Part shown: positions 4,722 to 21,036 of the stretch, one piece after another
How the letters are laid out: each line of letters begins with the position of its first letter
How positions within the stretch are numbered: the first letter of the stretch is position 1
DNA from: a virus
Virus record (IMG/VR): IMGVR_UViG_3300035661_000364
Span: 1-21,036 of that record
Length of the DNA stretch: 21,036 bases
Strand: one strand, 5' to 3'
Notes under the pieces: generated by a model
What the model was told of the DNA's origin: nothing
The model's database searches: none
Seen by the model: the letters and a program-made list of their open reading frames with translations, nothing else
Program-made: the position numbers and the translations under genes

Positions 4722-4774
4722 TGAGTTTTGCTTTAGAATACTACAACAAGCACCTTAAAATAAGAGTACTATGA
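4721..4774 (+). CDS. 17-codon linking ORF (possible coupling mini-gene)
   Basis: The ATG at 4721 overlaps the previous stop (TAATG), and the TGA at 4772-4774 overlaps the next start (CTATGA). The encoded peptide is MSFALEYYNKHLKIRVL. It exactly bridges the only gap in this part of the operon and keeps the end-to-end overlap seen at 3871, 4359 and 5850. The following start at 4771 has only a weak AAGAG-like Shine-Dalgarno in front, so translation of this mini-ORF could deliver ribosomes to it. It may have no protein function, or it may be a chance reading frame. Confidence 0.3.
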   Translation: MSFALEYYNKHLKIRVL

Positions 4775-5850
4775 AACAATTATTTATAAATAACGCTAAA
4801 ACGACCGCCGCAATATCCATAGCCTCTACTGATATGAATATCACTGTCGCCGCAGGGACAGGTGGAAAATTCCCATCTCCCGTTCCTGGACAAGAATACT
4901 TTATAGTGACTTTAGAGCTAGGAGGAGTAGTAGAGATTGTCCGCTGTACTTCTAGAAGCGGTGACACTCTTACCTTAGACACTAGAGGTATGGAAGGTAC
5001 GCTGCCCGCTTCTTTTGCAGTAGGTGCGGCAGTAGAGAGTAGACTAACAGCAGCTACTTTAAATAGCCTAGTTTCGGCTTCAGGAACTTTAATAACATTT
5101 CCTAGTCTTGATTCTTTACTACCTCCTAGTGTATTAGAACTCCCTGCCTGTGTCTGTTATAGTCTAGATACCTCAGGTAACCCTATACTGGCTCTTGAGG
5201 CTAGCATATCATCCTGGAGATTCTCTACTCATCCAAATGTGGTGGTGGTGGGATCGGTTACTGGAACAGGTACAACTACTCAAATAGCCTCCGCTGCTAT
5301 TGGGACTTTGTTAGTAGGTTTAATACCAGGCCAGTATGTAATTCAGTTTACTTCTGGCGCACTAATAGGTATGGCTAGGTTGGTAACTACGTCTTCTTCA
5401 AACGTACTAGCCTGGACCACTCCAATGCCTTCTGCTCCATTAGTAGGAGACACTTTTGAAATATATGAAGATACCGCTAGCTTACTTAAAGCCGAGTCTG
5501 CAACTAGAGCAGCAGCTGATGCAAAAGCAGTACAGGAAACTTCTGCAACTGGTTCAGCCTTACTTCCAGCAGGTACAACAGCTCAACGTGATGTCACTCC
5601 CGTCTTTGGCGCTACTCGTGCTAACTCTGACTTAACTCAAACGGAATGGTGGAATGGTACTGCTTGGGCTCCTATGGGCGGTGGTGCAACCGGGGCAATT
5701 GGCAACTATGTATTCTTTGAGAATGACATGACGGTAACTGCTAATTATACATTGACAGCTAATAAGAATGCCATGACTGCTGGACCAGTAACAATAAATA
5801 CAGGGGTAATAGTTACCGTACCTTCTGGCGCAACATGGAGTATTGTATAA
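4771..5850 (+). CDS. Tail-fibre or fibre-connector protein (359 aa)
   Basis: Residues 1-95 form a beta-rich N-terminal domain common at the start of phage tail proteins. It has an early NNAKTTAAISI strand, EYFIVTL, a VVEIVRCTSRSGDTLTL strand pair and an RGMEGTLPASFAVGA loop. After a variable middle there is a short helical Ala-rich segment (about 237-258, probably coiled coil). Then come AQRDVTPVFGATRAN and EWWNGTAWAPMGG (271-304). The C-terminus is a compact domain ending GPVTINTGVIVTVPSGATW, which caps many phage fibre and tail proteins. It directly precedes three fibre cassettes and may link them to the baseplate, which is inferred. Its last base overlaps the next start (TAATG at 5850). 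Confidence 0.7.
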   Translation: MKQLFINNAKTTAAISIASTDMNITVAAGTGGKFPSPVPGQEYFIVTLELGGVVEIVRCTSRSGDTLTLDTRGMEGTLPASFAVGAAVESRLTAATLNSLVSASGTLITFPSLDSLLPPSVLELPACVCYSLDTSGNPILALEASISSWRFSTHPNVVVVGSVTGTGTTTQIASAAIGTLLVGLIPGQYVIQFTSGALIGMARLVTTSSSNVLAWTTPMPSAPLVGDTFEIYEDTASLLKAESATRAAADAKAVQETSATGSALLPAGTTAQRDVTPVFGATRANSDLTQTEWWNGTAWAPMGGGATGAIGNYVFFENDMTVTANYTLTANKNAMTAGPVTINTGVIVTVPSGATWSIV

Positions 5851-6689
5851 TGAGCGTACAAGTAAATGGAACAACAGGGGTAAGTCTAGTAACAGGCATT
5901 GGTGCTTCAACTGATTTTGATGCGCGTTATGCAGCATCAATGCCAAACTTCACCGCGTCAACTACATCAAATCTAATATCTGCGTCACTAGGCGTAGGAA
6001 AAGTAGATTTCCGTAATGCTGTACTGACTAACGGCACTCTTGTTGAGTACAACGTAACCAGCACCTTAACTCTGGCAATGAACAGTACTGCTGCGTCATT
6101 AGGTGCAACAACAGCAGTAGCTACATCTCTAATTTACGCAATTGTTTATGCTGCTGGTACGCCACAATTAGCTGTTTGTAATTTGACTGGTGGATTACAA
6201 CTGGATGAAACCAATCTAATTACTACAACTGCGATTGGCTCAGGTTCGACCGCTGCAAACGTATGGTACTCCACAAGTGCAATAGCAACACCTTCGCAAT
6301 ATCGAGTTATTGGCTTAGTTAACGCGACATGGACTAGCGGTACTGGTTGGTCTAGTCCTATGTTAGTGCAGCCTGTTGGGGTTGGTCAAGCTATGCAGAA
6401 CTTTAGCAACTCATTAACTACTAGCGGTTATCAAAAATTACCAAGTGGTCTTATTATCCAGTGGGGAACTGGTACTGCCGTAGCTTCTGGTACTTCAACA
6501 GTTACATTCCCTATTACATTCCCGAATGCATGTTTGAATGTAGTAGGCACTCCAATGTATGCAACATCTGCAAATAACTGTATGTGTACTCTTAACTCAA
6601 ATACTAACTCACAAGCCGTATTTTATATGTATGACTATACGAATGGGACTTTACTAATAGCCCCAAAATGGTTTGCTGTAGGATATTAA
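5850..6689 (+). CDS. Tail fibre A (279 aa) with shared module and gp53-like C-terminal tip
   Basis: I place the start at 5850, which overlaps the upstream stop as TAATG. An in-frame ATG at 5835 lies inside the previous gene. Residues 25-182 are the 158-aa module shared without gaps with fibres B (7304) and C (8795). The C-terminal tip starts SGYQKLPSGLIIQWG at 192-206, the signature of the gp53-like tail-fibre C-terminal family, a likely receptor-binding end. Unlike B and C it has almost no N-terminal extension before the module, only about 24 residues. The next gene, an assembly-type protein, follows nine bases after the stop behind a clear AAGGA. By hand count its module differs from that of fibre B at about 21 of 158 positions. 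Confidence 0.8.
   Translation: MSVQVNGTTGVSLVTGIGASTDFDARYAASMPNFTASTTSNLISASLGVGKVDFRNAVLTNGTLVEYNVTSTLTLAMNSTAASLGATTAVATSLIYAIVYAAGTPQLAVCNLTGGLQLDETNLITTTAIGSGSTAANVWYSTSAIATPSQYRVIGLVNATWTSGTGWSSPMLVQPVGVGQAMQNFSNSLTTSGYQKLPSGLIIQWGTGTAVASGTSTVTFPITFPNACLNVVGTPMYATSANNCMCTLNSNTNSQAVFYMYDYTNGTLLIAPKWFAVGY
5922..6395 (+). repeat. Shared fibre module, copy 1 of 3 (158 aa)
   Basis: This is the central module of fibre A. It aligns without gaps to 7523-7996 and 8954-9427. A 30-base block around 6330-6359 (encoding WTSGTGWSSP) is nearly identical in all three copies. Confidence 0.85.
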
Positions 6690-6698
6690 GGAATAAAA

Positions 6699-7172
6699 AT
6701 GAAATACACAACATTAGATACAAACGGGCTACCAACTGCATTTTATTCAGACGACATTCACGGGAATATTCCAACGGATGCTAGGGCAATTACAGATGAG
6801 CAATGGCTTGAGTGTATTAACAACAGTGGGCAAATATGCTTCAAGAATGGTGTTTTAATTCCTTATACTATTACACTAACAGAATCAGAAATATTTGCAC
6901 AAACAGAGGCTACTTATAATCAAGCAGTGCAAGAATATATTGTCAGCATCGCACAGAAGAAAGGTTATCGTGATGATGTAAGCTGCGCTAGTTACTTAAA
7001 TGACCCACATCCGCTATTTGCAGCTGACGCGCAAGCTTTTGTGCCTTGGCGTTCGAGCGTGTGGTTACAGTGTTATGCAGACTTGGCAGCGATTAAGGCA
7101 GGAACGATGCCTATGCCCGCCAGCCCAGACGCCTACATTCTGACATTGCCAGCCGTGCCAGCGGGGTTCTGA
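6699..7172 (+). CDS. Tail fibre assembly (chaperone-like) protein for fibre A (157 aa)
   Basis: It lies directly after fibre A with an AAGGA ribosome site, the usual position of a tail-fibre assembly protein. The layout fits that group. The N-terminus (MKYTTLDTNGLPTAFYSDDI) is a small beta segment. A helical region at 72-95 (TYNQAVQEYIVSIAQKKGY) is followed by an A-x-F-x-P-W-R-x-x-V-W-x-x-C pattern (112-125) and a Pro-rich end (LPAVPAGF). These resemble the C-terminal domain in fibre chaperones that has Ala-rich helices and a conserved WR-x-x-VW. The last roughly 150 bases are clearly more GC-rich than the surroundings (35 of 60 bases in 7081-7140), which suggests that end was acquired by recombination. 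A fragment of a different chaperone family follows at once. Confidence 0.7.
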   Translation: MKYTTLDTNGLPTAFYSDDIHGNIPTDARAITDEQWLECINNSGQICFKNGVLIPYTITLTESEIFAQTEATYNQAVQEYIVSIAQKKGYRDDVSCASYLNDPHPLFAADAQAFVPWRSSVWLQCYADLAAIKAGTMPMPASPDAYILTLPAVPAGF

Positions 7173-7174
7173 GT

Positions 7175-7300
7175 ATGAAACTCCAAGGATTGTTTGCGAC
7201 TAGTGTGGCTAACGTCAATACACTATTCGTCCACAAGCAAACGCAGAAAGCTGCAATACGTGCAGCAACTACCGTTTCAGCCGTGATTAAGGGAATATAA
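7175..7300 (+). pseudogene. Remnant of a DUF4376-type fibre-assembly gene (41 codons)
   Basis: An ATG at 7175 opens a 41-codon ORF. Its sequence (LQGLFATS-VANVNTLFVHKQ, then KAAIRAATTVSAV) aligns with the last roughly 43 residues of the 160-aa protein at 8297 (LQGLYVASGNIANSAFTHKQ, then KAAIRAATKVTAV). The DNA matches too, with AGCTGCAATACGTGCAGC present in both. The rest of that gene is absent, and the sequence just upstream belongs to another chaperone family and is GC-rich. It is therefore best read as the 3' leftover of a chaperone gene replaced by recombination. It may still be translated as a short peptide. The stop is four bases before the fibre B start. Confidence 0.72.
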
Positions 7301-7303
7301 TAA

Positions 7304-8281
7304 ATGTCAGGACAAATAAAAGTAAATCAAGTACAGCTCGGTGATAGTGCAACAGCTACACAGAACTTTGTGCTTCAAACAAACGTGGATGGCACTGCTA
7401 AGTTAGCTCGTGGGAATGTAGGCGCTACTAGTCAGGATATATTCACTATAGATACAGGGGGAGGACTAAATGTATCTTCCGCAACTGCAAGTGGACATGT
7501 AGTAAACTTAGGTTTAGCTGATGCGCGTTATTCAGCATCGTTGCCAAACTTCACCGCATCAACCACATCAGCTTTAATATCCGCAACACTTGGAACTGGT
7601 AAAGTAGATTTTCGTAATGCTGTACTTACTAATGGTGCTACTGTTGCGTACAATTTAACCAGCACATTAACTCTGGCAATGAATAGTACGGCTGCCTCAT
7701 TAGGTGCAACCACAGCAGTAGCTACCTCTCTAATTTACGCAATTGTTTACAATGCAGGCTCACCTCAGTTAGCTGTTTGTAATCTATCGGGTGGATTACA
7801 ACTTGACGAAACCAATCTAATTACTACAACTGCGATTGGCTCAGGCTCGACGGCTGCAAACGTTTGGTATTCAACGACAGCAATATCAACAGCATCACAG
7901 TATCGAATTGTCGGGCGAGTAGATGCTACATGGACTAGTGGTACTGGTTGGTCTAGTCCTACATTAGTGCAGCCTGTTGGGGTTGGTGAGGCTATGGCAG
8001 GTTTTAGTAGTCTAGGTTATGGGCAGATTTACATAGATGTTACTGGCTCAAGGGTAGCCTCCACAACTTATTACAATGCAACTGGGAAACCCATACAGTT
8101 AATCATAGGCAACCAACTTTCCAGCACAAATGGCCCTATACTAACTGTAGGTGGCGTTGTTGCTGGGCATATTTCTACTGCCGCAGCTAATGTGGCTATA
8201 CTAAGATTGACCGCAATTGTACCCGCAGGCGCTTCTTATTCTGCAACTGGTGCATGGGACTCTTGGGTAGAACTTCGTTAA
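7304..8281 (+). CDS. Tail fibre B (325 aa)
   Basis: Residues 1-55 form a common phage fibre N-terminal segment (KVNQVQLGDSATATQNFVLQ), probably an attachment domain. A linker with SATASGHVVNLG (59-70) leads into the shared 158-aa module at 74-231. The tip (236-325) begins SLGYGQIYIDVTGSR and continues TTYYNATGKPIQ. This is a widespread fibre C-terminal domain unlike that of fibre A but related to that of fibre C. The protein has almost no charged residues, as in rigid beta-structured fibres. The preceding intergenic sequence is the chaperone remnant, so translation starts with only a weak GGGAATA ribosome site. The next gene follows 15 bases later behind AAAGGA. Confidence 0.8.
   Translation: MSGQIKVNQVQLGDSATATQNFVLQTNVDGTAKLARGNVGATSQDIFTIDTGGGLNVSSATASGHVVNLGLADARYSASLPNFTASTTSALISATLGTGKVDFRNAVLTNGATVAYNLTSTLTLAMNSTAASLGATTAVATSLIYAIVYNAGSPQLAVCNLSGGLQLDETNLITTTAIGSGSTAANVWYSTTAISTASQYRIVGRVDATWTSGTGWSSPTLVQPVGVGEAMAGFSSLGYGQIYIDVTGSRVASTTYYNATGKPIQLIIGNQLSSTNGPILTVGGVVAGHISTAAANVAILRLTAIVPAGASYSATGAWDSWVELR
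7523..7996 (+). repeat. Shared fibre module, copy 2 of 3 (158 aa)
   Basis: This is the central module of fibre B and is closest to copy 1. Several 30-60 base blocks are almost identical, for example around 7700-7750 and 7808-7850. It ends at VGVGEAM, after which the tips of A and B diverge completely. Confidence 0.85.
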
Positions 8282-8296
8282 AAGAAAGGATAAATT

Positions 8297-8404
8297 ATGT
8301 CACTATGGATAGACAGTAATAAGCAAGTACATGATGATATGGACGGAGCAGCTTTAGAATTATCAAGCTGGCCTAAAGGCATGACACCTTACACAATGCC
8401 AACA
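8297..8404 (+). repeat. Chaperone N-terminal repeat, copy 1
   Basis: The first 36 codons match 9731-9838 closely, with differences mostly at third codon positions. The last shared segment encodes the Pro-Tyr-Thr-Met-Pro stretch. Confidence 0.8.
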
Positions 8405-8779
8405 CCGACAGCAGCCGAATTGTTAGCAGCGGCACAGCAAACACAACTAGCCGTAATAGATAGTGCATACGTTACCGCTATACAGCAACCAGTCACGTAC
8501 ATGAACACGACATTTCAAGCTGACAAAGATAGTCAGGACTTGATGTTGAAATCCATCAATTGGCTTAAATCAATTGTAGATATCGGGGAAACTATTCCCG
8601 CAGACTTTGGTTGGTGGGACACTACAAACGTTAAGGTACCAATGACTTTAGAACAGTTGCAGGGTCTATACGTAGCAAGTGGTAATATTGCTAATTCTGC
8701 TTTTACTCATAAGCAAGATTTAAAAGCTGCAATACGTGCAGCGACTAAGGTCACAGCCGTGACCAAAATAGTTTGGTAA
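8297..8779 (+). CDS. DUF4376-type fibre-assembly protein for fibre B (160 aa)
   Basis: The N-terminal 36 residues (SLWIDSNKQVHDDMDGAA ...) are nearly the same as in the 170-aa protein at 9731, and the rest diverges. The body has the pattern I recognise for DUF4376. It has a helix, TTFQADKDSQDLML (70-83), DFGWWDTTNVKVPMTLEQLQGLY (103-125), then helical HKQDLKAAIRAA near the end. DUF4376 proteins usually sit next to tail-fibre genes and are treated as fibre-assembly proteins, though that role is based mainly on context. A good AAAGGA ribosome site precedes the ATG. Its 3' end is the homologue of the remnant at 7175-7300. Confidence 0.68.
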   Translation: MSLWIDSNKQVHDDMDGAALELSSWPKGMTPYTMPTPTAAELLAAAQQTQLAVIDSAYVTAIQQPVTYMNTTFQADKDSQDLMLKSINWLKSIVDIGETIPADFGWWDTTNVKVPMTLEQLQGLYVASGNIANSAFTHKQDLKAAIRAATKVTAVTKIVW

Positions 8780-8794
8780 TTACAGGACTTAATA

Positions 8795-9718
8795 ATGACA
8801 ACCTCAATAAGATCAGGAACTAGTGATTGTGCAGTACAGCTTAACGGAGTAGACGCTATCACATTTACAAGTTCTAGTGCAACAGTGGCACAGCCTTTAA
8901 CAGCCCCTTCCGCAACTGCAAGTGGTCAGGTGGTTAATTTAGGTCAGGCAGACATAAGATATTCCAGCTCGATGCCAAACTTCACCGCGTCAACTACATC
9001 AAATCTAATATCCGCATCGCTTGGAGCTGGTAAAATAGATTTTCGTAATGCTGTGTTAACTACTGGTACTCCTATTGAGTACACTATAACTTCTGCATTA
9101 TCACTTGTAATGAATAGTACTGCTATATCCTTGGGTGCAACCTCCGGAGTTTCTACAACTCTTATTTACGCAATCGTTTATGCTGCTGGAGTACCACAAC
9201 TTGCAGTAGCAAATACATCTGGCGGATTGCAGCTTGATGAAACAAACCTGATTACTACAACAACGATTAACTCCGGATCCACTAGTAATAATGTGTGGTA
9301 CTCAACAAGTATAATTTCTGCAGCCTCACCCTATCGTATAGTAGGGCGAGTAGATGCCACATGGACTAGCGGTACTGGTTGGTCTAGTCCTACGTTAGTA
9401 CAACCAGTTGGGGTTGGTGAGGCTTTGGCAGGGTTGAGTAGTCTAGGCTATGGACAGACTTGGAAAAGTGTTACAAGGACTGCCGGGACAACTTATTATA
9501 ATACTACAGGGAAGCCAATTCAAGTACTAGTTATTACTTCCCTAACACAAGACCCGAATCTCTCAATTACTTTATCTGGTCTTGCGTTAACAAATATACT
9601 AACTCAGATGCCTAGCGGAGCTTCAGCCCAGGAAAATTCTACTTTTATAGTACCTCCTGGAGGGTCATACTCTGTCGTAAATAGTAATGGCACTATAACT
9701 TGGTATGAACTTTCTTAA
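8795..9718 (+). CDS. Tail fibre C (307 aa)
   Basis: The third fibre cassette has a short distinct N-terminal segment (1-38, TTSIRSGTSDCAVQLNG) and a linker like that of fibre B (SATASGQVVNLG, 39-50). The shared module follows at 54-211, more diverged here than between A and B. The tip begins SLGYGQTWKSVTR and TTYYNTTGKPIQ (216-243) and ends ITWYELS. It belongs to the same broad tip family as fibre B but diverges strongly along the outer loops. The protein is Ser/Thr-rich and weakly charged. An AGGA lies 11 bases before the ATG. It is paired with the 170-aa gene that follows. Confidence 0.8.
   Translation: MTTSIRSGTSDCAVQLNGVDAITFTSSSATVAQPLTAPSATASGQVVNLGQADIRYSSSMPNFTASTTSNLISASLGAGKIDFRNAVLTTGTPIEYTITSALSLVMNSTAISLGATSGVSTTLIYAIVYAAGVPQLAVANTSGGLQLDETNLITTTTINSGSTSNNVWYSTSIISAASPYRIVGRVDATWTSGTGWSSPTLVQPVGVGEALAGLSSLGYGQTWKSVTRTAGTTYYNTTGKPIQVLVITSLTQDPNLSITLSGLALTNILTQMPSGASAQENSTFIVPPGGSYSVVNSNGTITWYELS
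8954..9427 (+). repeat. Shared fibre module, copy 3 of 3 (158 aa)
   Basis: This is the central module of fibre C, the most diverged copy, yet it has the same length with no gaps. The LQLDETNLITTT and WTSGTGWSSPTLVQPVGVGEA blocks are conserved. Confidence 0.85.
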
Positions 9719-9730
9719 GAGGATAATAAA

Positions 9731-9838
9731 ATGGCACTATGGATAGATAGTAACAATCAAGTACATGACGACATGGATGGTGCAGCTTTAGAATTACCAA
9801 GCTGGCCTAAAGGTATGTCACCTTACACAATGCCAGCA
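9731..9838 (+). repeat. Chaperone N-terminal repeat, copy 2
   Basis: This is the second copy of the 36-codon segment at 8297-8404. Homology ends near the Pro-Tyr-Thr-Met-Pro stretch, after which the two genes are different subtypes. Confidence 0.8.
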
Positions 9839-10243
9839 CCAACAACAGCAGAAATAGTTAATATTGCTAAAGCGTCTAAAATTGCGTCCTTGTCTAAATC
9901 ATGCCAAGACTATATTTATGCAGGGTTTACCTCAAACGCTTTAGGCTCAACATACACCTACCCTGCTAATGATAAAGATCAGACCAATCTAGCAGCTAGA
10001 GTACTTAGCAGTTTGTATCCAAATCTTCCAGCTAGCTGGACTACATCTTTTCTTTGTTGCGATACAAGCGGGGTTTGGGGTTATGTTAGTCACACTGCTG
10101 CCCAAATACAACAAGTAGGTGCTGATGCAAATGCGTATATCGCTTCAGCCTTAGTTAAAAACAACACTTTATCAAGACAGGTAAATGCAATAAACAACAC
10201 ATCCACTACTGCGCTAACAGACCTAGCGGCTATAGTTTGGTAA
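9731..10243 (+). CDS. Fibre-assembly-type protein for fibre C (170 aa)
   Basis: The N-terminal 36 residues repeat those of the 160-aa protein at 8297. The remaining part is of a different subtype. It has KSCQDYIYAGFTSNALG (54-70), a DKDQTNLA segment (83-90), CCDTSGVWGYVSHTAAQIQQVG (114-135), and helices ending in LTDLAAIVW. This C-x-x-x-I-x-x-GF-x-S-x-ALG ... DQ-x-NL ... HT-x-x-Q pattern is common in phage proteins next to fibre genes. It is taken as the assembly partner of fibre C from position. An AGAGGA ribosome site lies 8-13 bases upstream. The swap of body behind a constant N-terminus suggests the constant part does a shared job and the body matches the fibre tip. Confidence 0.66.
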   Translation: MALWIDSNNQVHDDMDGAALELPSWPKGMSPYTMPAPTTAEIVNIAKASKIASLSKSCQDYIYAGFTSNALGSTYTYPANDKDQTNLAARVLSSLYPNLPASWTTSFLCCDTSGVWGYVSHTAAQIQQVGADANAYIASALVKNNTLSRQVNAINNTSTTALTDLAAIVW

Positions 10244-10253
10244 ATAGACTTAA

Positions 10254-10772
10254 ATGATTTATTATTTAATTCTGATGTACGCACTAGCAGACCGTATTCG
10301 AGGCGATGCTTTTCAACCAGTAGTATTCAATTTCAACCATAGACTGTCTGCGTATGTAGTATTAGGGTGGACATTTGCTGCATTAACAGGTCACGTTTTT
10401 GATTACCTCACTTTACCTATTGCTCTTCTTTTAGTTGCAGGTGCTAGTTCAGGCTTGTCAGAACCCTTAGGCGCATTAAACAGTAGTAGACCTATGATTG
10501 TAGAGGAGTTAGAGTGGTGGCAGTTTGGCTGGATGAAAACCAACGCTTTATTGGCTACAACTTTTAGAGGATTAATGTGGGGAGTACCTGTTGCGCTTTT
10601 AACATACTTTGACCATTCCTTGATTTGGGCTTTACCAGCTTTCACTGTAGCAATGCCTGCTGCTGTTTTAATTAGTAGACAGTGGTTAAAATCAGACTGG
10701 CAGTACATGGAATTTATCAGAGGTTTTATTGCTGCTTCCTTATTCGTTTACTTTAAATCTTTAGGAGTTTAA
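10254..10772 (+). CDS. Multi-pass membrane protein of unknown function (172 aa)
   Basis: I do not recognise a named family. Hydrophobic segments are visible near residues 31-48, 51-66, 101-117, 122-140 and 156-167, so four or five membrane helices are likely. A conserved-looking N-terminal ALADRIRGD motif (10-18) and an EELEWWQFGW loop (84-93) lie between them. There is no signal peptide apart from the hydrophobic start. It follows fibre cassette C by 10 bases and is followed at two bases by a second membrane gene, so the two may act together in the host membrane. Possible roles are holin-like or antiholin activity, superinfection exclusion or virion-membrane contact. The sequence does not choose among them. 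Confidence 0.6.
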   Translation: MIYYLILMYALADRIRGDAFQPVVFNFNHRLSAYVVLGWTFAALTGHVFDYLTLPIALLLVAGASSGLSEPLGALNSSRPMIVEELEWWQFGWMKTNALLATTFRGLMWGVPVALLTYFDHSLIWALPAFTVAMPAAVLISRQWLKSDWQYMEFIRGFIAASLFVYFKSLGV

Positions 10773-10774
10773 AA

Positions 10775-11140
10775 ATGAAATCAGTTTACTTATTAGCCTC
10801 AATACCATTTTTAGTAACAGCAACGTGGATCTTCTACTTAGCTCTTATGAACCTGGTGGCACACAGAGATAAATTAAACTGGGCAGCTTGGTTGCTCGCA
10901 GGCCCTACTTTAGTAGTAGGTCTTATTTTTGACTTTTTACTAAACATGATTGTCGGCTCAATATTATTCCTTGAACTTCCGCAATACCAGAATAAGGAAT
11001 GGCTATTCACTACTAGGGTTTCCAGACACAAGTATGTTGACCCTGCAGATAGCTGGAGAGAGAAACTGGCATTCTTTATTTGCACTACTTTACTAGACCC
11101 ATTTTCTCCTACAGGTAGGCACTGCAATCCCCCATCCTGA
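10775..11140 (+). CDS. Phage membrane protein with C-terminal LLDPFSPTGRHC motif (121 aa)
   Basis: Two long hydrophobic stretches (about 7-29 and 35-68) are followed by a basic, soluble tail. It ends in a short segment, TLLDPFSPTGRHC (105-117). I recall this combination of a membrane hairpin, a short TxRxSRH segment (here TTRVSRH) and an LLDPFxPxGxHC end from small uncharacterised proteins in tail and lysis regions of proteobacterial phages. No function is known to me. The Cys and His at the end could bind metal. An AGGAG ribosome site sits ten bases before the ATG, inside the end of the upstream membrane gene. Confidence 0.62.
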   Translation: MKSVYLLASIPFLVTATWIFYLALMNLVAHRDKLNWAAWLLAGPTLVVGLIFDFLLNMIVGSILFLELPQYQNKEWLFTTRVSRHKYVDPADSWREKLAFFICTTLLDPFSPTGRHCNPPS

Positions 11141-12293: not shown

Positions 12294-14714
12294 ATGTCTA
12301 CGAAAAAAGCTTCTGGTGTAGGTAGTTCCTGGAAAGATGATAAGGGCGTAACCTTATACCCTTCAGTATATGTGCCATTTAATGAGTGTGATGAGACTTT
12401 ACATAGTAATTACGTACCTAGTGCCATAGGCAGGACCACTATGACGTGTGGGTCCTCTGATAAAGTAATAGAGCCGACTACCAATAGAGTTTATTATTCT
12501 GGATCTACGGTTCAAAATAGATTTGTTTTTGGAAATGTTATAGGAGGGACTAACCCAACCTCATACCATGACTTAGTATTATCACCCGCCGCAAATATAG
12601 GAAAGTTTATAGTAATAGCTTTGAAAATAAAAATAACCCCAGCACCTTCTACTTTTACTACAGTTATTTTCTTCAATGGTTATGTAACAGCAGCTGGCAC
12701 AGGTGGCCTTTCTCTAGACTTCAAATCTGGCACTACAGATGCCGTAAATCAATTTAGGCATGGTATACGATATTCAGGATCTGGGACCACTATATATGAT
12801 AGCTCTGCAACAGGCCCGTGGTGGCAGAGCGGGGTGTGGAGTGACATGTATCTTATATATAACCCTTCTGATGCGAATACTCTCAACATAAAACTATTTA
12901 TGGCAGACTCGACTGGAGTGTTAGTAAATTCCGGATCCCCCATCCTATCTTTATCTAAAATTGGGGCTATACCTAATCTACACTACGATGGTATTAGTAC
13001 CATCTTAGGGTACAATGGCGGGTGTCCTCTAGAAGTCAAAGACTTTGTAGCTTACGTGGATAATACAGATCCTACTATTAATGGGAATTTAACAAACTTA
13101 CTAAACTGGAGAGCTAGGCCCAATAATGATTTTCAGTTTCCAGATTTCTTGCGTAAACCCTCCAAGTCTATAGTGAAGCCTACCAGGGGGAAAGGCGGTT
13201 TTAAAGTTGGGTATTACTGTTCAGATTCTCCCATAGATGGCTCGGCAGGTAGAACTATAAATGATCAATATTCCTTCTGGCAGAAATGGGGGGTTCAAGA
13301 TTACGCATTTAGAGGGTTGCATATAGGGATGGGTATAGCTGCATTTCAGCCTACTGCAGGAGTATATAACACAGCCGACTTATCAGCCTTAGCAACATGG
13401 CTGTCCAGTAGAGGAATAGGTCTTAAAATTATGCTTCAAGATCAAACCTATTCCAACATAAATGAGATGCCTACTCATTTCCCCTATTGGACGGTAAATG
13501 TGGCATCTCCTCAAAGAATAGGCACTATATGGGATGACATTGAAAATCTAGATGTAGATGCATGGCTGCAAAATCCTACTCAATTCGATACGTATAATAG
13601 CGCATTAGCATCCAATGGGACGTACAGGATGTTCCACCACGTCTATACTTTACTAAAAACTCTTAAGTCATTCTCTTGTTTCGAAGGAGTGACTCTAGCA
13701 GAAACCGCAGGGTCAGCATACATCACTACAGATACTTTAGTGAATGGTGTAAGTAATCCCGTAGGCATATATGGTATAACTGATACCAATGGAGTATATA
13801 TACTAGGTAAGATTTATAGTAGACAGCGTCAGTTAATGTATTATGATAAGATGATGAAATTTATCTCAGGATACCTTAATAGTTTTAATAGAACAGACGT
13901 TACTAAGTCTATTCAGATAAACTATATGAGGGGTGGAATTATTAGTAATTATTCTGGATTCACTCAGTCCGGAAGCACTTTAACTAAAACTTCTCATGGT
14001 CTAGTTTCTGGAAGAGGCCTATACTTACTACATGGTTCTTATAACTCAGGAATATCTATGGGTTTAGCCTATGATACTCTATATTATGTAGTAGGGGCTA
14101 CTACTGACACTCTACAACTTAGCTTAACAGTTGGTGGAACCCCTATTTCTCTAAAGACGGTTAGCGACCCCAACCAGTTATACTTGCAAGATATAAACTC
14201 TTATATAGAGCTGGAACTATGCAAGGCCAGAGTACCCTCTTCTTGTAATGGGTTTAGTCTTCAGGAGCCCACTAGAGAAGTATTTACTTTAATAAATAGC
14301 TGTCGTAAGTATGGATTTGGTCTAAGTGGCCCAGACATAACTACAGCAGGAATAGAGAATCCAGCGTATGGTGAGAATGGGGCTGCAAGCATATCTCCTG
14401 TACAGATAAGGTTGGAGGCTTTAACAGGCACTGGATTCTTTAAAGGGTTAGGTCCCCTGGTAGGTATGGAGATACAAGCTCAAACATCTGCTTATACTAC
14501 AGCATACCCCACGGGCTCAACTAATATGGATACACTCATATCCAATCATGGTAGTACGGCATCAGGGTATATTTCTGCTGATCAAAGTAACACATATGCC
14601 ATTCATAGATTAAAGGTAGACTCTATAGTGTGGATTTTAAATCAAGCATACACGGAGAAGGCATTACCTGCCGTGTACGACGCTATTAGAAAACATAATT
14701 TAACGAAAGTTTAA
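12294..14714 (+). CDS. Putative tail-associated glycoside hydrolase (lectin-like + TIM-barrel-like), 806 aa
   Basis: Residues about 20-260 look like a concanavalin-type beta-sandwich. It has paired strands such as FIVIALKIKI, GLSLDFKSG and MYLIYNP, and ends with DFVAYVDNTDP. Residues about 303-545 and 625-800 look like alternating strands and helices of a TIM-barrel hydrolase. They contain FKVGYY, WGVQDYAFRG, a helix and GIGLKIMLQDQTY, then FEGVTLAETAG with E470, YGFGLSGPDI, and PLVGMEIQAQ with E726. E470 after a hydrophobic strand fits the acid/base Glu on strand 4 of clan GH-A, and E726 fits the nucleophile on strand 7. This is a reading from pattern, not proof. Residues about 553-622 form an inserted domain (SGSTLTKTSHGLVSG...) like the two repeats of the baseplate J-like protein. 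A role in cutting host surface polysaccharide is inferred. Confidence 0.6.
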   Translation: MSTKKASGVGSSWKDDKGVTLYPSVYVPFNECDETLHSNYVPSAIGRTTMTCGSSDKVIEPTTNRVYYSGSTVQNRFVFGNVIGGTNPTSYHDLVLSPAANIGKFIVIALKIKITPAPSTFTTVIFFNGYVTAAGTGGLSLDFKSGTTDAVNQFRHGIRYSGSGTTIYDSSATGPWWQSGVWSDMYLIYNPSDANTLNIKLFMADSTGVLVNSGSPILSLSKIGAIPNLHYDGISTILGYNGGCPLEVKDFVAYVDNTDPTINGNLTNLLNWRARPNNDFQFPDFLRKPSKSIVKPTRGKGGFKVGYYCSDSPIDGSAGRTINDQYSFWQKWGVQDYAFRGLHIGMGIAAFQPTAGVYNTADLSALATWLSSRGIGLKIMLQDQTYSNINEMPTHFPYWTVNVASPQRIGTIWDDIENLDVDAWLQNPTQFDTYNSALASNGTYRMFHHVYTLLKTLKSFSCFEGVTLAETAGSAYITTDTLVNGVSNPVGIYGITDTNGVYILGKIYSRQRQLMYYDKMMKFISGYLNSFNRTDVTKSIQINYMRGGIISNYSGFTQSGSTLTKTSHGLVSGRGLYLLHGSYNSGISMGLAYDTLYYVVGATTDTLQLSLTVGGTPISLKTVSDPNQLYLQDINSYIELELCKARVPSSCNGFSLQEPTREVFTLINSCRKYGFGLSGPDITTAGIENPAYGENGAASISPVQIRLEALTGTGFFKGLGPLVGMEIQAQTSAYTTAYPTGSTNMDTLISNHGSTASGYISADQSNTYAIHRLKVDSIVWILNQAYTEKALPAVYDAIRKHNLTKV

Positions 14715-14715
14715 T

Positions 14716-15399
14716 ATGAACTTTAATGACGCCTTCCTTTATGCAATGAAATCCGAGTGTGGTCCAGACTTCAACCCTGAAGACTTGGCTACAATTGACG
14801 GAGATATTTCTACTCCTACAAACCGAAAGAAGTGTGGGTATGTAAATAATCCAAAAGACCCAGGAGGTGAAACCAAATTCGGTATAGCTTCCAAGGCATA
14901 CCCCCACGTAGACATCAAAAGCTTAAACATGCAAGAGGCTAAAGACATCTATGAAAGAGACTTCTGGAAAGGTTGTGGTTGTGATGTACTACAAGACCCT
15001 ATTGCCTTACAAGTCTTTGATGCTTCTCTGAATAATGGCCCAGGTAATGCCTCTAGGTTTCTCCAAAGAGCACTAGGTGTTGCAGACGACGGACACATTG
15101 GACCTATTACAAGAAAAGTACTAGCTACAGCAGAGCCACACATTTTAGCTATTAAGTTTGACGCAGAGAGACTTCTGTTCTTTACCAAGCTTAGTACCTG
15201 GCCTACTTTCGGGGCAGGATGGGCAAATAGAATAGCTTTCAACCTAGAGGTTGTCAGTAAGAGTTGTAACTCAGAGCTGGCTAGTTTATTAATGCAAGCT
15301 TCTGTTAATATTAAATCTAACACTAAGTCTGCTACATGGAGTACTAAAGGTATTGGTATTTGTAGAGCTTGGGTTACTAAACTACAGGGAGTTAAATAG
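14716..15399 (+). CDS. Endolysin, GH108-type muramidase with C-terminal peptidoglycan-binding domain (227 aa)
   Basis: It cleaves peptidoglycan at the end of infection. The GH108 core is clear: GYVNNPKDPGGETKFGIA (41-58), then a helix with EAKDIYERDFW (74-84). The typical catalytic Glu lies in an EGGY motif directly before the NDP segment. Here that place reads KKCGY, and the likely equivalent is E14 (MKSECG), separated by a roughly 25-residue insertion. This split arrangement is one I recall from other phage lysozymes. Residues 100-140 (FDASLNNGPGNASRFLQRAL, then DDGHIGP) fit the PG_binding_3 domain that follows GH108. There is no signal peptide, so release depends on a holin, probably the next gene, which starts right after the stop. 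Confidence 0.87.
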   Translation: MNFNDAFLYAMKSECGPDFNPEDLATIDGDISTPTNRKKCGYVNNPKDPGGETKFGIASKAYPHVDIKSLNMQEAKDIYERDFWKGCGCDVLQDPIALQVFDASLNNGPGNASRFLQRALGVADDGHIGPITRKVLATAEPHILAIKFDAERLLFFTKLSTWPTFGAGWANRIAFNLEVVSKSCNSELASLLMQASVNIKSNTKSATWSTKGIGICRAWVTKLQGVK

Positions 15400-19065: not shown

Positions 19066-19089
19066 TACTATTTAAAGTAAAGGTCATAT

Positions 19090-21036
19090 ATGTCACTGCT
19101 ACTAGCTCTAGTAGGTAGTAGCACTACTATAAGCTCCTCAGTAAATTCTAGTCAAGGTCAGACTGCTTTAGGTAGTAGCACTACTATAAGCTCCTCAGTA
19201 AGTTCTAGTCAAGGTCAGACTGCTTCAGGTAGTAGCACTACTATAAGCTCCTCAGTAAGTTCTAGTCAAGGTCAGACTGCTTCAGGTACTGCTAATGCTT
19301 CTATAAGCTCTACGGAGTCTTCTGGTCAAGGTCAGACTGCTTCAGGTGCTGCCAGTTCTTCTAACGGGTTATTTCCAGTAGTTAACTCGGCTAACGCAGG
19401 AGTAACCTCCTCTAATGCGACTACTGCCTCATTAACTCTACCCGCTAGTGTTTCTCCAGGTGATTTACTCGTAGTTCGTATCGGTTATAGTGCTGCTGGG
19501 ACAGTTACTTGGGACAACACAACTGCAGGAACTTGGACTAATCTATTTACTCAAGTTAACGGTACTTCACTACAGTACGAGATTTACTACAAAGTAGCAG
19601 ATGGTTCGGAGACAAGTAAAGTATTATCTATTACTATTCCGAGCGGCCAAATCGCATACCGAGCGGTTTCTTTTACTGGAGTAAATACAAGCGCTGCTTC
19701 TTATATTGAATATGTTACTACTACTGGTTCAAGTGCTAACCCTGACTCATTAACCTTAACTCCTTCTTGGGGTGTGTTGGACACGTTATGGCTGTCTGAC
19801 GAAGCTAACGCTAACGGTAACACTACTGTAACTGCTTATCCAGCCGGTTTTGGTGGGGGTACAAACCATAGAACTGCTACTGTATCCGGTGTTGGCATAG
19901 GGTGTTCTAACCTTAACTCTACAGTAGCGACAGTAGATCCTGCTGCATATACTATATCATCTAGTAAAGCGTGGACTGCAGCAACAATTGCATTAAGACC
20001 TTACGCCAGTACGACCGCAACTAGTACTGAAGCTTCGGCACAAGGCCAAACAGCCACTCTTTCTACAAGTCTAGCTGTTATAGCCTCAGAGAGTTCTAGT
20101 CAGGGACAGACTACATCTATCGCAGCTAGTTTGAGTATAAACTCTTCAGCTGTTTCTAGCCAAGCTCAAACATCTACCTCTACTTTATCTACGGCTATAA
20201 CAATTGGTTCTACAGAATCTTCTAGTCAGGGACAAACAGCTACTGCGTCAACAGGGATTGCAGTAAATGCATCTGTTAGTTCTAGTCAAGGTCAGACTAC
20301 TTCAGGTACGGCTAATGCTTCTCGAAGCTCTACAGAGTCTTCTAGTCAAGGTCAGACTGCTTCAGGTACTGCTAATGCTTCTATAAGCTCTACGGAGTCT
20401 TCTAGTCAAGGTCAGACTACTTCAGGTACTGCTAATGCTTCTATAAGCTCTACGGAGTCTTCTAGTCAAGGTCAGACTACTTCAGGTACTGCTAATGCTT
20501 CTATAAGCTCTACAGAGTCTTCTAGTCAAGGTCAGACTACTTCAAGTACTACTAATGCTTCTCTAAGCTCTACTGAGTCTTCTAGTCAAGGTCAGACTAC
20601 AGCTGCAATAATAAGTTTAGGCATAAACTCCACAGCTGTTTCTAGTCAGGGGCAAACATCTGCCTCTACTTTATCTACTTTAGCGATAGAGTCTTCTGGT
20701 CAAGGTCAGACTGCTTCAGGTACTACTAACGCTTCTCTAAGCTTTACTGAGTCTTCTAGTCAAGGTCAGACTGCTTCAAGTATTGCTAGTGCTTCTATAA
20801 GCTCCACGGAGTCTTCTAGTCAAGGTCAGACTACTTCAGGTACTGCTACTGCTTCTCTAAGCTTTACTGAGTCTTCTAGTCAAGGTCAGACTGCTTCAAG
20901 TATTGCTAGTGCTTCTCTAAGCTTTACTGAGTCTTCTAGTCAAGGTCAGACTGCTTCAAGTATTGCTAGTGCTTCTCTAAGCTTTACTGAGTCTTCTAGT
21001 CAAGGTCAGACTGCTTCAAGTATTGCTAGTGCTTCT
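19090..21036 (+). CDS. Ser/Thr/Gly/Gln-rich tandem-repeat surface protein, 3' truncated (at least 649 aa)
   Basis: The reading frame from the ATG at 19090 (preceded by AAAGG) stays open to the window end, so the 3' part is missing. Residues 9-85 contain four copies of a short repeat (units of 19-20 aa). Residues about 95-304 are a globular beta-rich domain (VSPGDLLVVRIGY ... AATIALRP), a type common at the ends of phage and bacterial surface proteins. From residue about 310 to the end, 17 further repeat units follow, consensus SSQGQTxSGTANASISSTES. Almost only S, T, G, Q, A, N and a few E are used, so the repeats are probably extended or disordered, or a simple beta-coil. The short N-terminus (MSLLLALVG) resembles other phage structural proteins I recall. 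A fibre or decoration role is likely; binding targets are unknown. Confidence 0.72.
   Translation, partial: MSLLLALVGSSTTISSSVNSSQGQTALGSSTTISSSVSSSQGQTASGSSTTISSSVSSSQGQTASGTANASISSTESSGQGQTASGAASSSNGLFPVVNSANAGVTSSNATTASLTLPASVSPGDLLVVRIGYSAAGTVTWDNTTAGTWTNLFTQVNGTSLQYEIYYKVADGSETSKVLSITIPSGQIAYRAVSFTGVNTSAASYIEYVTTTGSSANPDSLTLTPSWGVLDTLWLSDEANANGNTTVTAYPAGFGGGTNHRTATVSGVGIGCSNLNSTVATVDPAAYTISSSKAWTAATIALRPYASTTATSTEASAQGQTATLSTSLAVIASESSSQGQTTSIAASLSINSSAVSSQAQTSTSTLSTAITIGSTESSSQGQTATASTGIAVNASVSSSQGQTTSGTANASRSSTESSSQGQTASGTANASISSTESSSQGQTTSGTANASISSTESSSQGQTTSGTANASISSTESSSQGQTTSSTTNASLSSTESSSQGQTTAAIISLGINSTAVSSQGQTSASTLSTLAIESSGQGQTASGTTNASLSFTESSSQGQTASSIASASISSTESSSQGQTTSGTATASLSFTESSSQGQTASSIASASLSFTESSSQGQTASSIASASLSFTESSSQGQTASSIASAS
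19114..19284 (+). repeat. Three near-identical 57-bp tandem repeats
   Basis: Units at 19114-19170, 19171-19227 and 19228-19284 differ at only a few bases. Each encodes a 19-aa unit with SSTTISSSV and SSQGQT. A fourth, more diverged 60-bp unit follows to about 19344. Confidence 0.9.
20017..21036 (+). repeat. 60-bp tandem repeat array running off the window
   Basis: Seventeen S-x-(Q)-x-QT motifs occur at 20035, 20095, 20155, 20221, 20281, 20341, 20401, 20461, 20521, 20581, 20641, 20695, 20755, 20815, 20875, 20935 and 20995. Spacing is mostly 60 bases, with 66 and 54 once each. The last units (20881-20940 and 20941-21000) are identical, and 21001-21036 continues the same unit. Length in the real genome may differ if reads were collapsed. 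Confidence 0.92.

Follow-up and report, generated by a model that had tools for sequence, protein, structure and literature searches.

Phages can carry several receptor-binding proteins, as described for G7C, K1-5, the Klebsiella KP32viruses (PMC6872550), and the Ackermannviridae (PMC11721090). In such anchor and branch systems, conserved short N-terminal peptides (29 amino acids in the second receptor-binding protein of KP32; PMC6872550) are joined to variable distal parts. In P-SCSP1u, a T7-like cyanophage that its authors compared to P-SSP7, the fibre docks with its N-terminus on the adaptor and nozzle (PMC10575957). Fibres can also have dedicated assembly factors. Tfa-type chaperones (phage Mu Tfa, Pam3 gp25, and V22 gp27; PMC9608196, PMC7289586, PMC10579305) are encoded directly downstream of the fibre gene; in Pam3 gp25, fibre binding is the task of a variable N-terminal domain and trimerisation that of a conserved C-terminal one (PMC9608196), and V22 gp27, a DUF4376 protein, is a proven fibre chaperone that is needed for an active fibre (PMC7289586). 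Transfer of a fibre together with its chaperone between distant phages is already known (PMC10579305).

The DNA analysed here (the window) is a 21,036-base IMG/VR virus record from an uncultured tailed phage. It is 99.7% identical across at least 13.9 kb to a 39-kb record, L001, which is the same phage. Three tandem fibre genes (A, B, and C) are each followed directly downstream by their own chaperone gene (cA, cB, and cC) after gaps of 9 to 15 nucleotides (nt), and all six genes run in one direction with short gaps throughout (Table 1). The gene f0 directly precedes slot A. We propose that the locus probably encodes a branched three-slot receptor-binding apparatus, in which a hub carries three docked homotrimeric fibres with three tips. 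Neither its parts nor its principles are new; the slot logic, a recombination junction within the chaperone, and the hub-anchor rule set it apart as a variant not seen in the literature searched. Searches of Rfam and of phage records with the cassette DNA gave no match.

Table 1. Features of the fibre and chaperone locus (window positions).
Feature	Position	Strand	Description
f0, proposed hub fibre	4771..5850	+	359 aa; N-domain residues ~4-109; no own chaperone gene
Hub motif (C-terminal 50 residues of f0)	5698..5847	+	C-terminal in most matched ORFs
Fibre A	5850..6689	+	279 aa, counted from the second ATG (alternative ORF start 5835); anchor 5850-5933, module 5922-6395, Gp53-like_C tip to 6686
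Chaperone cA	6699..7172	+	putative tip-specific head 6699-6887, type-X C-domain 6888-7169
Fossil 3' end of former slot-A chaperone	7179..7290	+	DUF4376-type C-domain; identity to L002 and L005
Fibre B	7304..8281	+	325 aa; anchor 7304-7522, module 7523-7996, TTYYN-type tip to 8278
Chaperone cB	8297..8779	+	head 8297-8428, DUF4376 C-domain; PF14301 2e-13
Fibre C	8795..9718	+	307 aa; anchor 8795-8953, module 8954-9427, TTYYN-type tip to 9715
Chaperone cC	9731..10243	+	head 9731-9865, second DUF4376 C-domain type; PF14301 6.5e-10

Other genes of the window were also noted. An 806-amino-acid protein (12294-14714) has no Pfam match and by eye resembles a glycoside-hydrolase-type barrel; it could be a surface-glycan depolymerase. 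An ordinary lysozyme gene follows (14716-15399; Glyco_hydro_108 and a peptidoglycan-binding domain). The open frame at 19084-21036 covers at least 640 residues and runs past the contig end, with many repeats of 19 to 20 residues (SSxQGQTASGTANASISSTES...; 57/60-base period), and may encode a long fibre or adhesin of repetitive sequence.

The preliminary description had reported a 158-residue module in all three fibres, with about 21 differences between A and B. Alignment bore this out: the module aligns ungapped (residues 25 to 182 in A, 74 to 231 in B, and 54 to 211 in C), with exactly 21 amino acid differences for A/B, 38 for A/C, and 35 for B/C, and with 76, 125, and 116 differences, respectively, over 474 nt. 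The 137 of 158 identities between A and B compare with a maximum of 33 in 10,000 shuffles, and the likeness is therefore not due to chance; dN/dS among the three modules was 0.11 to 0.23, suggesting that all copies are under purifying selection. About 70 viral contigs contain the module, and in almost all cases it is the domain directly before the tip (median tip length, 100 residues). It is single-copy in most other phages (also in all 4 of the 399 genomes of L020's order that have it), and only the window phage and its relative L002 carry it in several genes. The module is thus a common penultimate fibre domain and not special to the window phage. Four contigs (L008, L009, L011, and L075) have two tandem module copies within one fibre chain.

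No Pfam family or PDB sequence matched the module, and a profile of module and tip gave only two chance-level matches. An AlphaFold2 model of module and tip, built with 48 sequences, was all beta with a mean pLDDT of 86.9, and phage tail-fibre proteins were among its 33 significant matches in a viral library, so that the suspicion that the module might not be fibre-like was not borne out. PDB matches of this model were rejected as homologues because their TM-scores were low (about 0.2 when taken over the query); an earlier 15-sequence model was too poor (mean pLDDT, 52), so its fold search was set aside. We infer that the module is a shaft or spacer domain that doubles as recombination homology.

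The fibres had been described as differing both at the N-terminus and at the tip, which holds in part. The C-terminus of fibre A matches PF21882 (Gp53-like_C; 1.2e-23), a family without a match in fibres B and C, and its tip is homologous to those of R-type pyocin fibres and AP22 gp53 (PDB 6cl6, 6cxb, and 4mtm; 1e-7 to 1.5e-3), the rest of fibre A being unrelated to these by sequence. The tips of B and C belong to one family, so only A's tip is of another kind, and B and C share about 18 residues directly upstream of the module.

Slot by slot, the comparison was made with one sister chassis, L002 (L001 being the same phage), whose genes stand in the same order, with three fibre slots. The two are 94.5% identical in DNA as far as position 5935 (codon 28 of fibre A) and 94.1% identical again from position 9833 (codon 34 of cC), with a mosaic in between. 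The N-terminus of fibre A (92.9% nucleotide identity) and, within the mosaic, those of B and C (92.7% and 93.1%) and the chaperone C-domains (92.7% for cB and 94.9% for cC) stay close to the 94% of the chassis; the modules are 83% (B/B2) and 78% (C/C2) identical, no closer than paralogues (A/B, 84%), and the fibre tips and chaperone heads have been exchanged. With anchors at chassis identity and diverged modules, each N-terminus serves as an anchor specific to its slot, and module, tip, and chaperone head are exchanged as a unit. In slot A of L002, the anchor is kept and the module is absent. Downstream of cA, the window retains a 112-base fossil, which matches the end of the L002 slot-A chaperone at 93.8% identity and L005 at 94.5%; the incoming block therefore displaced the old chaperone in slot A. 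An open frame of 41 codons with its own ATG is retained in the fossil (7175-7300). The earlier view of a constant middle between two changing ends as an unusual fibre logic falls with this comparison, in which the N-termini are constant (92.7 to 93.1%) and the module changes (78 to 83%); it arose because paralogues inside one genome had been compared, and of the two supposedly changing ends, one is the slot anchor, which is constant, and the other the tip, which varies.

The three assembly genes had been assigned to three subtypes. They do represent three combinations of parts, but cB and cC have a common head and both end in a DUF4376 domain (PF14301, both above the cut-off), for which cA has no match. 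In 14 fibre/chaperone pairs taken from phages of several chassis, similarity of the chaperone heads tracked that of the tips (Mantel r = 0.89, p = 5e-5), part of which could come from linkage alone, the tip and head genes being adjacent; the C-domains followed neither tips (r = −0.15) nor heads (r = −0.02). The heads thus appear to be tip-specific and the C-domains not matched to the tip, and the fibres are probably paired with cognate chaperones and bear three different tips, as had been supposed. The window chaperones fit the known two-domain, Tfa-type chaperones: the gene lies directly downstream of the fibre, a tip-matched variable head is joined to a separate, more conserved and exchangeable C-domain, and the block is mobile between distant phages. 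Unlike in Tfa-type systems, the junction in the window phage lies inside the chaperone, the C-domain is kept per slot, and three pairs stand in tandem. In unrelated phages, small membrane-like proteins are encoded after fibre chaperones (window 10254-11140, L007 7182-7703, L020 4387-4722, and L109 4922-5221); the window gene is related to that of L007 (2e-83), and the likeness of the other two was judged by eye.

The N-terminal part of f0 matches tail-fibre PHROGs, and its N-domain is homologous (3e-15) to that of the L003 fibre, in which N-domain, module, and tip form one chain; judged by this homology, the single chain of L003 does what a hub and a docked fibre would do in the window phage. 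Hub N-domains are likewise homologous to N-domains of single-chain fibres. Of 27 matches in the fetched loci to the motif of about 50 residues that ends f0, 24 lie at the C-terminus of their ORF, mostly with a fibre gene directly downstream whose N-terminal anchor is short. Within 4 kb upstream, a hub-motif gene was present for 18 of 22 module fibres with a short N-part (up to 82 residues, a cut set after the data had been seen) and for 0 of 31 with a long one (Fisher, 1e-10); counted by locus, the figures are 15/19 and 0/31, and a threshold-free Mann-Whitney test gave 6e-8, the loci in these statistics being partly related. Unlike in the gp10-like branched systems (G7C and CBA120), a Pfam-level search found no T4 gp10-like domain in f0 or the fibres, and the proposed hub has this different C-terminal motif instead.

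The hub motif occurs in 131 named phage records, mostly of cyanophages. A short-anchored fibre-like gene follows it in 12 of 13 named phages inspected, with anchor types beyond A, B, and C judged by eye; the exception is S-CAM7, in which the gene after the motif is not a fibre, and the motif might hence be a general C-terminal trimerisation cap. A close likeness is seen in the cultured Prochlorococcus phage P-SSP7 (gp17 and PSSP7_037-041): the motif ends gp17, and four tandem short-anchored fibres with different anchors follow (6151-8871 in our record, L122), sharing a distal domain of ∼160 amino acids (GKILQV...EVAA). P-SSP7 differs from the window phage in that this distal domain is another one, in being a T7-like podovirus, and in having one small chaperone-like gene among the four fibres. 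The B anchor recurs in L108 (a 216-kb contig), L109, and L117 to L120, the chassis of which look unrelated to the window phage, and in most of these contigs the fibre genes beside it bear anchors that resemble A and C. Their order is A-B-C in the window, L002, L108, and L109, A-C-B in L117 and L119, and C-B in L118 and L120, where a full A gene is not visible. Outside the window/L002 pair, conservation of the A and C anchors, which are short, is weak (22 to 48%), and the B and C anchors had no match in named phage records. In L108 (5565-6170), a C-type anchor is joined, by eye, to an S74-type autocleaving intramolecular chaperone, which replaces the external one.

Instead of docking on a hub, three independent fibres might each be anchored to their own baseplate site, which would make f0 a fourth fibre and its motif a trimerisation cap. 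Slot-specific anchors would suit this arrangement, as would S-CAM7, which bears the hub motif without a fibre gene beside it. We nevertheless consider it unlikely, since the motif is found upstream of short-N but not of long-N fibres and the anchors recur on unrelated-looking chassis, for which a shared baseplate site is improbable.

Among the options raised in the preliminary description, a branched fibre is the best reading, and heterotrimers or cross-linked fibres formed by way of the common module are disfavoured. The module is ungapped and conserved in all three fibres, which speaks for such an assembly, but slot A of L002 keeps its anchor without a module, most other phages have a single copy, and the chaperone heads appear tip-specific, so we regard this option as highly improbable. 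Hardly more credible is a reservoir of cassettes with a single fibre in use at any time, by phase variation through an invertase or a diversity-generating retroelement: the tandem cassettes are interchangeable, but all six genes are co-directional with short gaps. An invertible segment of the Mu G type was rejected, with neither a resolvase or invertase nor inverted repeats found, as was a diversity-generating retroelement, with no reverse transcriptase found (enzymes searched in G000, G001, and G002, records that may be incomplete).

In the favoured hub-and-slot arrangement, f0 would sit on the virion by its N-domain and offer the C-terminal motif as a docking site, to which three homotrimeric fibres in one virion would attach by the short slot-specific anchors A, B, and C. 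Each fibre would consist of an anchor, a beta-rich spacer module, and a receptor-binding tip of about 100 residues. The tip would be folded by a dedicated chaperone of two domains: the head would recognise the tip, and the C-domain would drive assembly. New specificities would arrive by recombination, between slots and between phages, as a block of module, tip, and chaperone head. One crossover would lie within the module or beside it and the other at the boundary of chaperone head and C-domain, and the anchors and C-domains would stay where they are.

The hub-and-slot arrangement seems to recur in many unrelated aquatic phages and to be undescribed. Tentatively, it may amount to a widespread docking standard, in podo- and myoviruses alike, by which a C-terminal hub motif takes several homotrimeric fibres through a few short anchor types and fibres can be exchanged between chassis. 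If the hub reading is true, it would explain how many aquatic phages have multiple receptor-binding fibres without a gp10-like branch protein and would provide a sequence rule for their detection, namely, a hub motif followed by short-anchored genes. Natural recombination cuts ahead of the module and within the chaperone, where the apparently tip-specific head meets the constant C-domain, and marine phages in culture, among them P-SSP7, allow the putative contact of hub and anchor to be tested directly.
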